Shown piece by piece: positions 5,236 to 53,335 of a stretch of 64,000 nt of DNA. The DNA lies in NCBI RefSeq assembly GCF_946463545.1, contig NZ_OX296583.1, positions 1,029,035 through 1,093,034 on the forward strand. Reading direction: 5' to 3'. This stretch comes from Methanothermococcus thermolithotrophicus DSM 2095. Lineage in GTDB: Archaea; AGJL01; Methanococci; Methanococcales; Methanococcaceae. The number at the start of each line of letters is the position of its first letter. The stretch's first letter is position 1. Under the pieces are notes generated by a model. It did no database searches. It saw only the letters and a program-made list of their open reading frames with translations, and was not told the origin of the DNA. The position numbers were made by a program, and so were the translations under genes.

Positions 5236-5349
5236 TGCCGAGGGGGGGACTCGAACCCCCGACCTCTCGGTTTCCCAGGACCCAAGGATGTTACTCCTTG
5301 GGAATTTCCGTATGAGCCGAGCGCTATAACCAGCCTAAGCCACCTCGGC
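5236..5349 (-). tRNA. tRNA-Met (CAT), elongator type, with intron
   Basis: The minus strand folds as a cloverleaf with acceptor GCCGAGG/CCTCGGC, discriminator A, T arm GGGGG-TTCGAGT-CCCCC and anticodon stem CTCGG/CCGAG. The anticodon CAT is followed by one A and then by about 39 nt of extra sequence before the 3' half of the anticodon stem, the canonical 37/38 intron site cut by the archaeal bulge-helix-bulge endonuclease. The mature tRNA would be 75 nt. CCA is not encoded. I call it elongator because it lacks the initiator-type AGCGGG acceptor. Confidence 0.93.
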
Positions 5350-47506: not shown

Positions 47507-48655
47507 ATGGTTTCAAAACCTCATGGTGGAAAGTTAGTCAATAGGGTAGCTACAGAAAAAACAAAAGAGAAGATTTTGGAAGAACAGAATGAATTTTCAA
47601 AAGTTCAAATTAGAGAAGGGACTGCAATAGATTTGGAGAATATAGCACATGGAGTTTATTCACCACTAACAGGTTTCTTAAGAAAGGATGAATTCCAGTC
47701 AGTACTGGACAATATGAGACTACCTAATGAGTTACCTTGGAGTATTCCAATAGTTTTGGATGTAACTGAAAAAGAAAAGAACTTTGGAGAAGGGGATGTC
47801 ATTTTACTCTATTACAATGATACCCCAATAGCAAAGATGCAGGTTGATGAGATTTACACGTACGATAAAAAAGAATTTGCAAAAAAAGTTTTCAAAACAG
47901 ATGAAGAAGCCCATCCTGGTGTAGCTAAAACTTATGCATTAGGAGAATATTTGGTTGGCGGTGAAATTGAGCTTTTAAATGAGGTACCCAATCCGTTTAA
48001 AAGCCACACGTTAAGACCTGTCGAAACAAGGGCGTTATTTAAAGAGAAAGGTTGGGAAACTATTGTAGCATTCCAAACAAGAAACGTTCCTCATTTAGGA
48101 CACGAGTATCTACAAAAGTTGGCACTAACCTTTGTTGACGGAGTTTTTGTAAACCCTGTTATTGGAAAGAAAAAGAAAGGGGATTACAAAGACGAGGTAA
48201 TTTTAAAAGCCTATGAAACCCTGTTCGAGCACTACTATCCAAAAGATACAGACATTCTGGCAACAGTAAGATATGAGATGCGTTATGCTGGACCAAGGGA
48301 AGCAATACATCATGCAATAATGAGGAAAAACTTTGGATGTACTCATTTCATTGTTGGAAGGGATCATGCTGGAGTTGGGGATTACTACGGACCATATGAA
48401 GCTCAAGAAATATTCCAAAACTTCCCAGACTTAGAAATTTCTCCAATATTCTTCAGGGAGTTCTATTACTGTAAAAAATGTAATGCAATAGTTCATGATA
48501 GAATCTGCCCACACACGTCAGAATACAGGGAACACTTTAGCGGAACAAAAATTAGAAACATGATTGTTAATGGAGAACTACCTCCTGAGTACTTCATGAG
48601 AAAAGAAGTCTATGAAACAATAAGAAGCTTTGAAAACCCATTTGTGGATGAGTAA
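47507..48655 (+). CDS. sat: ATP sulfurylase
   Basis: The 382-residue homo-oligomeric type sulfurylase has QTRNVPHLGHE (190-200), GRDHAGVGDYYG (284-295) and a zinc site C322, C325, C334 and H336 (CKKCNAIVHDRICPH). It forms APS and pyrophosphate from ATP and sulfate. There is no fused APS-kinase domain. The start at MVSKPHGGKL follows GGGTGATTACTA. It is the first structural gene of the cluster and its stop lies 1 bp before the PAP phosphatase start, so the two are coupled. Context shows an assimilatory role. Confidence 0.95.
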   Translation: MVSKPHGGKLVNRVATEKTKEKILEEQNEFSKVQIREGTAIDLENIAHGVYSPLTGFLRKDEFQSVLDNMRLPNELPWSIPIVLDVTEKEKNFGEGDVILLYYNDTPIAKMQVDEIYTYDKKEFAKKVFKTDEEAHPGVAKTYALGEYLVGGEIELLNEVPNPFKSHTLRPVETRALFKEKGWETIVAFQTRNVPHLGHEYLQKLALTFVDGVFVNPVIGKKKKGDYKDEVILKAYETLFEHYYPKDTDILATVRYEMRYAGPREAIHHAIMRKNFGCTHFIVGRDHAGVGDYYGPYEAQEIFQNFPDLEISPIFFREFYYCKKCNAIVHDRICPHTSEYREHFSGTKIRNMIVNGELPPEYFMRKEVYETIRSFENPFVDE

Positions 48656-48656
48656 T

Positions 48657-49604
48657 ATGTTAGTGATACACCATTGGGATACGGACGGAATAACCTCAGC
48701 GGCTTTAACTATTAAGGCCTTAGGGCTAGATGATTTCATCAATATTGTGCCCCCTATCGGGGAATTTAGATTTGATGGAAGGGTAAAAAAACACATCGAA
48801 GAAGCAGAAAAGGTTTATATTTTAGACTTGAATCTCCCGCAAGAAGTGGAGGATGTAGAAAAAGATACTGTATTCATCGACCACCATCTGCAAAAAAAGA
48901 TTAAAAATCCAAAAGTTAGGCAAGTAAATCCAATCTTAGAAAGGATGAACGGGAAGGAGTTCCCTTCAGCATCATTTGTGGTTTCTAACCACTTTTCACT
49001 GTGGAACTCCTGGAGCTCCCTTGGAGCAGTTGGGGATATTGGAAACAAAGCCTTTGAAATCCCCAAAACTTTAGAACTTTTAAAAACCGAAGGTTTAACA
49101 AAAAACGAAGCACTAAAACTTGTTCAGTTGATAGATTCAAATTATATAACAATGGACAGAAGTGCTGCGGAAAAAGCCGTTGAATTGGTTTTAAATCGAC
49201 CACTTAAAGAACTTTTGGAGTATGAACCCTGGATTAAAAATCTCGAAGAGATAGAAAGAACCATCAAAGATGTCTTGTCAGGAATTGAGGTTAAAAATGA
49301 CATTGCATTTATCGAATACTCAAGTCCTTTCAATATAATCTCAAAAATTGCAAGAAAAGCAGTTTGGGAGATGGGATATAACGGAGCAGTAGTTTTAAAC
49401 AGGTCATTTCATGAAAAAGCCCAATTATACTTTAGGATTTCTCCAGATTTAAAAGAAAAAATAGATATGGAAGGAATAATTCAAATACTGAAAAATAGGG
49501 GATTCAATGCAGGTGGCAAAAGCGAAGTTTTAGGCATAATTTTTGAAAAAAATAGGATAGATGAAGTCTTAGGAATTATCAATGGATACTTAGCCAGTTT
49601 ATAA
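48657..49604 (+). CDS. DHH-family phosphatase, probable PAP phosphatase
   Basis: The 315-residue protein has the DHH superfamily motifs HHWDTDGITSAA (5-16), ILDLNLP and FIDHHLQKK (about 72-80), and a C-terminal DHHA1-like part with NRGFNAGGKSEVLG. Most DHH proteins are nucleases or small-nucleotide phosphatases. Here the gene is locked between sat and APS kinase, which fits removal of 3'-phosphoadenosine 5'-phosphate, the inhibitory by-product of PAPS reduction. I recall such a DHH PAP phosphatase being described in M. thermolithotrophicus. Alternative starts at 48648 and 48630 overlap sat; I chose 48657. Confidence 0.85.
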   Translation: MLVIHHWDTDGITSAALTIKALGLDDFINIVPPIGEFRFDGRVKKHIEEAEKVYILDLNLPQEVEDVEKDTVFIDHHLQKKIKNPKVRQVNPILERMNGKEFPSASFVVSNHFSLWNSWSSLGAVGDIGNKAFEIPKTLELLKTEGLTKNEALKLVQLIDSNYITMDRSAAEKAVELVLNRPLKELLEYEPWIKNLEEIERTIKDVLSGIEVKNDIAFIEYSSPFNIISKIARKAVWEMGYNGAVVLNRSFHEKAQLYFRISPDLKEKIDMEGIIQILKNRGFNAGGKSEVLGIIFEKNRIDEVLGIINGYLASL

Positions 49605-49784
49605 AATAACTGAATGCACAGCGAATAAAACCAATAATAACGTAAGTAGGCCCAGGCTATATTCTTAGATTGAAATATAATAATAAATATTATATACTCA
49701 ACCTGGATCGATAGGCCGTATAAAGACAATATATGTAGCATATACATGACAATATTCAATAAAAAAACAATTGGAGGGTATATC

Positions 49785-50354
49785 ATGAGTGAAGAATTAA
49801 ATAACGGTGAAAATTCACTTTTAAAAAATCTTGAGGATGGATTTACAATTTGGCTTACTGGCCCAAGTGGGGCAGGAAAATCAACTTTGGCTTATGCTTT
49901 AGAGAAAAAATTATTGGAAAAGGGATTTAGGGTTGAGATCTTAGATGGAGATGTAATAAGGAATACACTATATCCAAACATTGGATTTAGCAAGGAAGCT
50001 AGGGAAATGCATAACAGGGTGGTCATTCACCTGGCAAAACTACTTTCAAAAAATGGTGTAATAACAATAGTTTCCCTTATCTCACCATATCGGGCAGTTA
50101 GAGAATATGCAAGAAAAGAAATTCAAAACTTTATGGAAGTTTATATCCACAGCCCCCTTGAGGTCAGAATCCAGCGAGATCCAAAGGGACTCTATGCTAA
50201 GGCATTAAAAGGAGAAATTAAAGGACTAACTGGATATGACGGGGTTTATGAAGAACCTGAAAATCCAGAGCTTAAAATTGAGAGCCATAAAATGAGCATT
50301 GAAGAGGAAGTAGACACTGTGATACGAACTGCACAGAAACTCGGCTATCTTTAA
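49785..50354 (+). CDS. cysC: Adenylylsulfate (APS) kinase
   Basis: The 189-residue kinase has Walker A GPSGAGKST (26-34), DGDVIRNTLYPNIGFSKEAR and SLISPYRAVREYARKEI, with RDPKGLYAKALKGEIKGLTG for APS binding. It phosphorylates APS to PAPS. The start follows TTGGAGGGTATATC; 13 residues upstream lack support. A 180-bp gap with its own TATA-like ATATTATATACTC (49690-49702) separates it from the phosphatase gene, so it may start a second transcript. The transporter gene follows with 10 bp spacing. Confidence 0.95.
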   Translation: MSEELNNGENSLLKNLEDGFTIWLTGPSGAGKSTLAYALEKKLLEKGFRVEILDGDVIRNTLYPNIGFSKEAREMHNRVVIHLAKLLSKNGVITIVSLISPYRAVREYARKEIQNFMEVYIHSPLEVRIQRDPKGLYAKALKGEIKGLTGYDGVYEEPENPELKIESHKMSIEEEVDTVIRTAQKLGYL

Positions 50355-50364
50355 GGTGGGCCTT

Positions 50365-51117
50365 ATGCTACTCTTCACATTTCTTGGTTTTGTGGTGGGT
50401 GTACTTGTTGGGCTAACTGGAGTGGGAGGAGGGGCATTAATGACCCCTTCTTTGATATTTTTAGGCGTTGAACCACTAACGGCAGTAGGCACTGATTTAG
50501 TATATGCATCTGTCACAAAAATATTTGGAACGATCTTCCATAGAAAAAAAGGAAATATTGAGCTAGATACTTCTTTAAAATTATTTGCGGGTAGTTTTCC
50601 AGCTATAATAATAGGCTCTCAAATTTTAAGATATGTCAATAGGGACCTTATAAACCATCATTTAACTGTGTTTCTTGGTATAATCCTAATAATAACTTCC
50701 ATATTGAGTTTAAGAAAAGGTAGATTTGAAGGACGTAAGAGTCTTAAATTCTTGACTTTGATACTACTTGGATTTTTCGTGGGATTGGTAGTTCAATTCA
50801 CTTCGGTAGGTGCCGGCGTTTTAGTGGGATTTATACTTGCTAACTTTACCACATTAAATCCCCGTTATGTTGTGGGTACTACAGTCTTTTATGGATTAAT
50901 GCTCTCCTTAGTTAGTGCTGCAAGCCACATTAGCCTAGGTAATGTTAACTATTATTTATCACTGTGGCTAGTTCTTGGAACCATTCCTGGTGTTTATTTC
51001 GGCACCCACTTAAATTCAATTATCAAAAAAGATAAGCTTAGAAGGGTTATCAATATGCTAATCTTATTTACGGGAATGGTAACCATAGCAAGTGTGTTTA
51101 ATGGGTTTAAACCCTGA
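50365..51117 (+). CDS. TSUP/TauE-SafE family permease, candidate sulfate or sulfite transporter
   Basis: The 250-residue protein has about eight hydrophobic segments and the duplicated TSUP motifs LVGLTGVGGGALMTPSLIF and FTSVGAGVLVGFIL. Members move anions such as sulfite, sulfoacetate or taurine. Its place right after APS kinase (GGTGGG binding site) and before the PAPS reductase suggests sulfate or related oxyanion movement, either import or sulfite relief. The direction and substrate cannot be read from sequence. Confidence 0.85.
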   Translation: MLLFTFLGFVVGVLVGLTGVGGGALMTPSLIFLGVEPLTAVGTDLVYASVTKIFGTIFHRKKGNIELDTSLKLFAGSFPAIIIGSQILRYVNRDLINHHLTVFLGIILIITSILSLRKGRFEGRKSLKFLTLILLGFFVGLVVQFTSVGAGVLVGFILANFTTLNPRYVVGTTVFYGLMLSLVSAASHISLGNVNYYLSLWLVLGTIPGVYFGTHLNSIIKKDKLRRVINMLILFTGMVTIASVFNGFKP

Positions 51118-51342: not shown

Positions 51343-53031
51343 ATGGATGTTAAAAAAATATTTACTGACATCTTAATAATCGGCGGTGGAGCTGCAGGAT
51401 GTCAGGCCGCAATAAGGGCAAAGGAGATAGATAAAAATTTAGATGTCCTAATAGTAGAAAAAGCCAATATAATTAGAAGTGGCTGCTTAGCTGCTGGAGT
51501 TAATGCCATAAATGCTTATTTAAATGAGGGAGAAACTCCAGAAAGTTATGTAGAATATGTAAAAAAGGAATCTTCTGGTCTTATAAGGGAGGATTTAACA
51601 TACACAATAGGAAAAAGATTAAACAAAATGGCAAAAAAACTAGAAGAGTATGGGTTGCCCATTCAAAAAGATGAAAACGGTCGATACGTGGCCAGAGGAA
51701 AGCGAAGTATAAAAATTAATGGAGAAAGTATAAAGCCAATTTTAGCAGAGGCTACTTTAAAAGCAGGTGTTAAGGTTTTAAACAATACAATAGCTACGAA
51801 TTATATTTTAAAAGATGAAACAGTTTGCGGAGCTTATGCTTTTTCTATAAAAGAGAATAAATTTTACGTAATAATGGCAAAAGCAGTAATATGTACAACA
51901 GGTGGGGCTTCAGGCATATACAAACCAAACAACCCTGGTGCGGCAAGACATAAAATGTGGTATTCTCCGTTTAATACTGGCGCAGGATTTGCAATGGGGC
52001 TTAGGGCCGGGGCAGAAATGACAACGTTTGAAATGAGATTTATAGCTCTAAGGGTAAAGGACGTAATATCTCCAACAGGAACTATTGCACAGGGAGTTAA
52101 AGTATCACAGATAAATGCACTTGGAGAAAAATACATGGAGAAATATGAAAATAACACTACACCAATGAGATTGTATGCGACTTTGATTGAAAATCTTGAA
52201 GGAAGGGGGCCTTGCTATCTTGATACAAGGGGAATAAGCGATGAAGATGTTCAAAAGTTAAAAGAAGCCTATTTAAGTATGTCACCAGGGATTATTTTAA
52301 AATGGAAAGATGAAAAAATAAATCCTAAAAACACGCCTATTGAGATATGCGGATCTGAACCCTATATCGTGGGAGGTCATGGACAGGCAGGATATTGGGT
52401 AGATATCAATAGAAAAACAACCTTGGAAGGATTATATGCAGCAGGGGATGTAGTCGGAGGTTCGCCTAAAAAATATGTTACAGGATGTATGGCCGAAGGC
52501 GAAATAGCAGTAGAAGCAGCAATAGAATATATAAAAAGCATGGAAAATGACATAGAAATAGACGAGCAAGAAATAGCAAAAGAAATAGATAGGGTATTCT
52601 ACCCATTAAACAATAAAAAAGGAGAATTCTCTCCTGATGAAATAGAAGAAAGAATGCAAAAAGTAATGGACGAATATGCTGGTGGGATATCTTCCTATTA
52701 TCGGGTAAATGAATCAAAACTTTTAATTGCAAGAGAACTGCTAAAAGCCATTGAAGAAGACCTTAGTAAAATAAAAGTTAGAAACAGGTATGAATTGATG
52801 AAATATCACGAAGTGGTAGATAGAATATTGGTTGCTAGGGCGGTAGTGGAACATTTGTTATATCGTAAAGAAACACGGTGGAAATGTTATCAGGAAAGGG
52901 TTGATTATCCTGAAATAGACGATAATTGGTTTAAGTTTATAAATTCCAAATATAATAGTCAAACGAATGACATAGAGATTATAGAACGGGAATATGAGAA
53001 ATTTAATCCGGTGATCAATAATGACCATTAG
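51343..53031 (+). CDS. PAPS reductase alpha subunit, AprA-like flavoprotein
   Basis: The 562-residue protein starts with a Rossmann FAD motif IIGGGAAGCQAA (12-23) and follows the fumarate reductase/AprA fold (RSGCLAAGVNAIN, TTGGASGIYKPNNPGAARHKMWYSPFNTGAG, GLYAAGDVVGGSP) with the AprA-type C-terminal helical region (VEHLLYRKETRWKCYQERVDYP). AprA family members reduce APS; the adjacent APS kinase and PAP phosphatase imply that this one uses PAPS. I recall exactly this enzyme being characterised in M. thermolithotrophicus. The start follows GGTGATAGAAAA. It overlaps the beta gene by 11 bp. Confidence 0.88.
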   Translation: MDVKKIFTDILIIGGGAAGCQAAIRAKEIDKNLDVLIVEKANIIRSGCLAAGVNAINAYLNEGETPESYVEYVKKESSGLIREDLTYTIGKRLNKMAKKLEEYGLPIQKDENGRYVARGKRSIKINGESIKPILAEATLKAGVKVLNNTIATNYILKDETVCGAYAFSIKENKFYVIMAKAVICTTGGASGIYKPNNPGAARHKMWYSPFNTGAGFAMGLRAGAEMTTFEMRFIALRVKDVISPTGTIAQGVKVSQINALGEKYMEKYENNTTPMRLYATLIENLEGRGPCYLDTRGISDEDVQKLKEAYLSMSPGIILKWKDEKINPKNTPIEICGSEPYIVGGHGQAGYWVDINRKTTLEGLYAAGDVVGGSPKKYVTGCMAEGEIAVEAAIEYIKSMENDIEIDEQEIAKEIDRVFYPLNNKKGEFSPDEIEERMQKVMDEYAGGISSYYRVNESKLLIARELLKAIEEDLSKIKVRNRYELMKYHEVVDRILVARAVVEHLLYRKETRWKCYQERVDYPEIDDNWFKFINSKYNSQTNDIEIIEREYEKFNPVINNDH

Positions 53032-53335
53032 GATAATAGAAGAGATATGCATAGGTTGTGGATTATGTACAAAAGTATGTCCAGGTAATTTACTGTACCA
53101 GAGGGAAGATGGAAAATCGGAAATTATGGACAAGAGAGATTGCTGGGATTGCGCAGCGTGTGTTAAGGAGTGTCCAGTAAATGCTATAGAAATGTATCTT
53201 CAACCTGAAATAGGTGGTAGAGGTTCAACATTAAAAGCTAAAAAAACAGATGATAGTATAGTATGGATAATAACAGATAATAATGGCGAAGAGGAGGTTA
53301 TAGAAGTAAAGAATAAAAAAACATTTGATATGTAG
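53021..53335 (+). CDS. PAPS reductase beta subunit, 2x[4Fe-4S] ferredoxin
   Basis: The 104-residue protein has two cluster motifs: C10, C13, C16, C20 (CIGCGLCTKVCP) and C41, C44, C47, C51 (CWDCAACVKECP), followed by a short tail with EMYLQPEIGGRGSTLKA, as in AprB. It passes electrons to the flavin of the alpha subunit. Canonical AprB proteins of sulfate reducers are about 150 residues with a long C-terminal arm wrapping AprA; that arm is shortened here. The overlap with the alpha gene indicates translational coupling. Confidence 0.92.
   Translation: MTIRIIEEICIGCGLCTKVCPGNLLYQREDGKSEIMDKRDCWDCAACVKECPVNAIEMYLQPEIGGRGSTLKAKKTDDSIVWIITDNNGEEEVIEVKNKKTFDM

Follow-up and report, generated by a model that had tools for sequence, protein, structure and literature searches.

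An AprAB-type PAPS reductase of Methanothermococcus thermolithotrophicus and a residue 122 pattern among its short-beta bacterial relatives

INTRODUCTION

Methanothermococcus thermolithotrophicus DSM 2095 encodes, downstream of genes for ATP sulfurylase and APS kinase, a flavoprotein and an iron-sulfur protein resembling the alpha and beta subunits of dissimilatory APS reductase (AprAB). The locus raises the question of which substrate this pair reduces, APS or PAPS, and whether it serves respiration or assimilation. The original prediction, made from the sequence of the window (the whole 64,000-nucleotide stretch, positions 1,029,035 to 1,093,034 of contig NZ_OX296583.1), was that a respiratory enzyme architecture had been recruited for assimilation and switched to PAPS. 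The observation is correct, as is its interpretation, and each had been published before. The whole sulfate pathway of this organism, the only methanogen for which growth on sulfate has been proven, was worked out by Jespersen and Wagner (2023, Nat Microbiol 8:1227, PMC10322725), and the reductase, MtPAPSR, was purified, assayed, and crystallised in the same study.

RESULTS

The alpha and beta genes encode MtPAPSR

From end to end, the translated alpha and beta sequences match chains A and C of PDB entry 8A8O without a single difference (Table 1); since they match a crystallised enzyme, the pair is not a chance reading. The start of the beta ORF overlaps the end of the alpha ORF (53021 versus 53031). 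There is very little doubt that the pair is MtPAPSR, the alpha2beta2 FAD/[4Fe-4S] PAPS reductase of M. thermolithotrophicus. The published assembly is indeed alpha2beta2, and its crystal structure was determined to 1.45 Å (PMC10322725).

TABLE 1 Features of the sulfate-assimilation locus, numbered by position in the window
Feature	Position	Strand	Evidence
ATP sulfurylase (MtATPS, PDB 8A8D/8A8G)	47507..48655	+	Full-length top match 8A8D, 885 bits; PF01747, TIGR00339
DHH-family PAP phosphatase (MtPAPP, PDB 8A8K)	48657..49604	+	Top match 8A8K, 695 bits; PF01368; published assay (PMC10322725)
APS kinase (MtAPSK, PDB 8A8H)	49746..50354	+	Top match 8A8H, 410 bits; TIGR00455, 231 bits
TauE/SafE-type permease, predicted	50356..51117	+	PF01925, E=1.2e-45; between APS kinase and alpha
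PAPS reductase alpha subunit (FAD; MtPAPSR alpha, PDB 8A8O chain A)	51343..53031	+	562 aa, 100% identity to 8A8O_A over 562 aa
Part of substrate loop, alpha codons 101-125 (Arg118, Lys120, Arg121, Ser122; proposed 3'-phosphate site)	51643..51717	+	A. fulgidus AprA alignment; PMC10322725
PAPS reductase beta subunit, two [4Fe-4S] motifs (PDB 8A8O chain C)	53021..53335	+	104 aa, 100% identity to 8A8O_C over 104 aa

As had been claimed from the sequence, alpha retains the FAD fold and C-terminal region of APS reductase: it contains FAD_binding_2 (E=1.8e-33) and Succ_DH_flav_C (E=9.2e-7) domains, and its alignment with A. fulgidus AprA spans almost the whole protein (363 bits; 38% identity according to PMC10322725). 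It passed the NF005331 profile for short AprA-like proteins, scoring 888.2 bits against a curated cut-off of 557 bits, but failed that for canonical AprA (TIGR02061, 396.9 bits versus 641.75). Beta, likewise, failed the canonical AprB profile (TIGR02060, 45.8 bits versus 135.65). Its eight cysteines (Cys 10/13/16/20 and Cys 41/44/47/51) form two CxxCxxCxxxC motifs, and at 104 residues, compared with 150 in A. fulgidus and 166 in M. gigas, it lacks most of the C-terminal arm of AprB, which bears out the description first given of it.

On the plus strand the order is ATP sulfurylase, DHH phosphoesterase, APS kinase, TauE-type permease, alpha, and beta; the kinase and phosphatase noted earlier near alpha thus both lie upstream, with the permease between kinase and alpha. 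The MtPAPP ORF was listed as 48630-49604, from a TTG at 48630; the start that agrees with the residue numbers in print (His6, Asp8, Asp10) is the ATG at 48657. For MtAPSK, the true start is probably an ATG near 49785, to judge from the solved chain 8A8H, which matches from residue 13. A TauE/SafE-type permease also follows the APS kinase in cassettes of other Methanococci (L111, L112, L114; L numbers are our locus labels). TauE goes unmentioned in the main text of that study (PMC10322725), in which the sulfate transporters proposed are DASS/SulP-class proteins. Elsewhere in the window, an Rfam match of 54 bits over 114 bases marks a tRNA at 5236-5349 on the minus strand, where ARAGORN reports none; it is probably an intron-containing archaeal tRNA.

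The substrate loop differs from that of AprA

Alignment with A. fulgidus AprA shows that six active-site residues are kept in alpha (Asn74=N57, Tyr95=Y72, Trp234=W206, Arg265=R237, Arg317=R276, and His398=H346), whereas three are changed (Glu141 to Arg118, Gln145 to Ser122, and Leu278 to Gln250). Residues 120 to 122 read Lys-Arg-Ser (KRS). Canonical AprA proteins from two Bacillota genomes (L099 and L100, in the genomes of L010 and L004) retain the Glu and Gln, and in each of these genomes the dissimilatory AprA coexists with a short-family copy. The altered site and the failed TIGR02061 cut-off argue against the outcome named in advance as refuting a switch, a canonical AprA with a conserved APS site.

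An active site able to accept the 3'-phosphate had been anticipated, and a structure-based proposal of this kind is published: loop 104-123, with Lys120, Arg121, and Ser122, would give room for and bind the 3'-phosphate, with which AprA Gln145 would clash (PMC10322725). A soak of the crystal left solvent only, and neither PAPS nor PAP is bound in the structure (PMC10322725). Like the authors of PMC10322725, we infer the exact pose of PAPS, the flavin adduct, and the role of Lys120/Arg121/Ser122 as the cause of the preference.

Two further loops were observed. The genome of L006 encodes a second, divergent AprA-like protein on a long branch (L102), whose loop, RGQWD, is unlike both canonical EGQWQ/EGKWQ and MtPAPSR. 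Relatives from Nitrospirae/Leptospirillum (L018 and L079) adjoin ATP sulfurylase and have the loop RGRWN, which stands partway between the AprA and short-family loops; no APS kinase was found for either.

The short beta subunit is a family trait

The short beta had been tied to the switch to PAPS, and this part of the original prediction did not hold. A short beta is common to nearly all of about 80 bacterial relatives, with or without APS kinase; counted from the start of the cluster motifs to the protein's end, 65 of 78 beta ORFs in relatives have 94-95 residues, and that of M. thermolithotrophicus has 95. As a sign of the switch it was rejected, for it occurs with Ser122 or Asn122 and with or without a kinase. 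Being common to both groups, it marks the family, not the substrate.

Residue 122 and APS kinase in bacterial relatives

In 50 bacterial genomes with a relative of alpha, APS kinase was searched for with TIGR00455 and residue 122 was read from the alignment. Every genome with a Ser122 relative encoded the kinase (20/20), and none was found in 29 of the 30 with Asn122, the other having one; many of these genomes are MAGs of unstated completeness, which makes kinase absence uncertain. Examples are a Ser122 enzyme of Clostridium frigoris (L016) and an Asn122 enzyme of Blautia (L034), the latter from a genome in which no APS kinase was found. One genome (L040) was scored as lacking the kinase at 137.7 bits against a cut-off of 138.7. 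Two Ser122 relatives (L008 and L075) have no adjacent kinase but have one elsewhere in the genome, that of L075 lying on a 633-residue frame, long enough for a CysNC fusion. A strict rule by which a kinase implies Ser122 was rejected: L006 and L104 both combine Asn122 with a kinase, and L104, outside the 50 rows, adjoins it.

Fisher's exact test gave p = 4e-13 for the association of Ser122 with the kinase, a value not to be taken at face value because the rows are related. Four changes at residue 122 suffice on the tree, the rows not being independent, and a sign test of independent contrasts had too few contrasts for significance. Alpha columns 265 and 516 separate the kinase groups as well as residue 122 does. 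The pattern is in line with the specificity proposal in print, and proves neither that proposal nor the existence of APS-type members; what follows as a prediction is that some bacterial relatives form an APS-type subfamily with this architecture. We found no prior work on the clostridial short-beta enzymes in the open-access literature, and within that literature the residue 122 pattern is the sole part of this analysis that we did not find described.

Distribution among Methanococci and Bacillota

Among 36 Methanococci genomes, only that from which the window comes encodes an alpha above the family cut-off, whereas APS kinase and PAP phosphatase occur together in the same 8 (matches of 74-100% identity were taken for the kinase, weak P-loop matches being ignored). 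In two others of these 8 genomes (at L111 and L112) the order ATPS, PAPP, APSK, TauE is preserved, with neither alpha nor beta within the 8 kb taken. The PAPS reductase thus seems to have been added to an ATPS-PAPP-APSK-TauE cassette that was there before it.

Relatives of alpha are nearly all from Clostridia and other Bacillota. Of those that we found, the closest is L104 (61%), a second copy carried by a Thermincola MAG, and a Caldanaerobius protein at 68% is named as a relative in PMC10322725. Acquisition from Bacillota is likely, as judged from these comparisons. Recruitment for assimilation is likely as well, whichever the donor and whichever way the switch between APS and PAPS ran.

DISCUSSION

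The substrate of MtPAPSR was decided at the bench. The published activity was 0.114 umol MV/min/mg with PAPS versus 0.007 with APS, a rate of about 6.5% (PMC10322725), which upholds the predicted use of PAPS; the test set for it, whether APS activity exceeds that with PAPS, had already been run in 2023. No reverse reaction was measurable, PAP was inhibitory, and hydrolysis of PAP by the DHH phosphatase MtPAPP was demonstrated by assay (PMC10322725). In the pathway, ATP sulfurylase forms APS, from which APS kinase produces PAPS. In MtPAPSR, electrons pass from the two beta clusters through Trp42 to FAD, whose N5 would attack the PAPS sulfur, and sulfite and PAP are released. The otherwise inhibitory PAP is removed by the phosphatase, and sulfite is reduced to sulfide by F420-dependent sulfite reductase.

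MtPAPSR folds and assembles like AprAB, and the NCBIfam name of NF005331 is adenylyl-sulfate reductase alpha, as would suit a canonical dissimilatory AprAB reducing APS for respiration or running in reverse. Such an enzyme is very improbable here, given both failed canonical profiles, the altered APS-site residues, and a published assay that refutes it by its PAPS preference and unmeasurable reverse reaction. The phylogeny points the same way: a tree in which canonical AprA and TfrA are held together, apart from the short family, fits better (likelihood +13.9) and was not rejected (p-AU 0.695). When the tree was rooted on TfrA, however, the outgroup branch, at 7.5 changes per column, was too long, and an unconstrained search placed the root within the short family. 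A fumarate reductase-type (TfrA) enzyme shares the FAD fold and the Succ_DH_flav_C domain, but this identity is barely credible: a different gene of this genome encodes its TfrA-like protein, which is 28% identical and lacks the Trp206, Tyr207, Arg237, and His346 common to the AprA-type proteins compared, and the published assay refutes it (PMC10322725).

The residual activity with APS could instead speak for a generalist that uses both substrates in vivo, with the kinase there for other sulfonation; kinase and phosphatase do occur without an alpha-type reductase in 7 other Methanococci genomes. We consider this improbable, as the residual rate was attributed by the authors to APS instability (PMC10322725).

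With MtPAPSR taken as a PAPS reductase, a wider picture can be offered tentatively, at somewhat less than an even chance. The short-beta AprAB-like family may serve assimilation widely in anaerobic Clostridia and fall into two classes by substrate, with alpha residue 122 as the marker: Ser, accompanied by an APS kinase, for PAPS, and Asn, where there is no kinase, for APS. M. thermolithotrophicus may have acquired a PAPS-type copy, placed beside the older Methanococci cassette. An enzyme built as in sulfate-breathing microbes is here used for making cell sulfur; that few changes suffice to reuse respiratory sulfur chemistry for assimilation is a point already published. The comparative pattern adds naturally paired relatives, apparently of the APS and the PAPS type, on which the specificity claim could be checked.

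Compared with known systems, the pair differs in nothing that we found from MtPAPSR as published, being identical in sequence and gene neighbourhood (PDB 8A8O, PMC10322725). The CysH-type thioredoxin-dependent PAPS/APS reductases (PF01507, with no match in alpha) carry out the same reaction with unrelated fold and chemistry. Dissimilatory AprAB (A. fulgidus, 2FJA/1JNR; M. gigas, 3GYX) has the FAD fold, cluster arrangement, and catalytic residues in common with MtPAPSR; unlike it, this respiratory APS reductase conserves Glu141/Gln145 and has a beta of 150-166 residues. The clostridial short-beta AprAB-like proteins (NF005331; for example, L003, L007, L034, and L104) have alpha subunits 45-61% identical to that of MtPAPSR and beta subunits of about 103-110 residues, and at the loci inspected their genes adjoin those for ATP sulfurylase (Sat or CysDN). 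Unlike MtPAPSR, many of these relatives have Asn122 and no APS kinase found in the genome, and are predicted to use APS.
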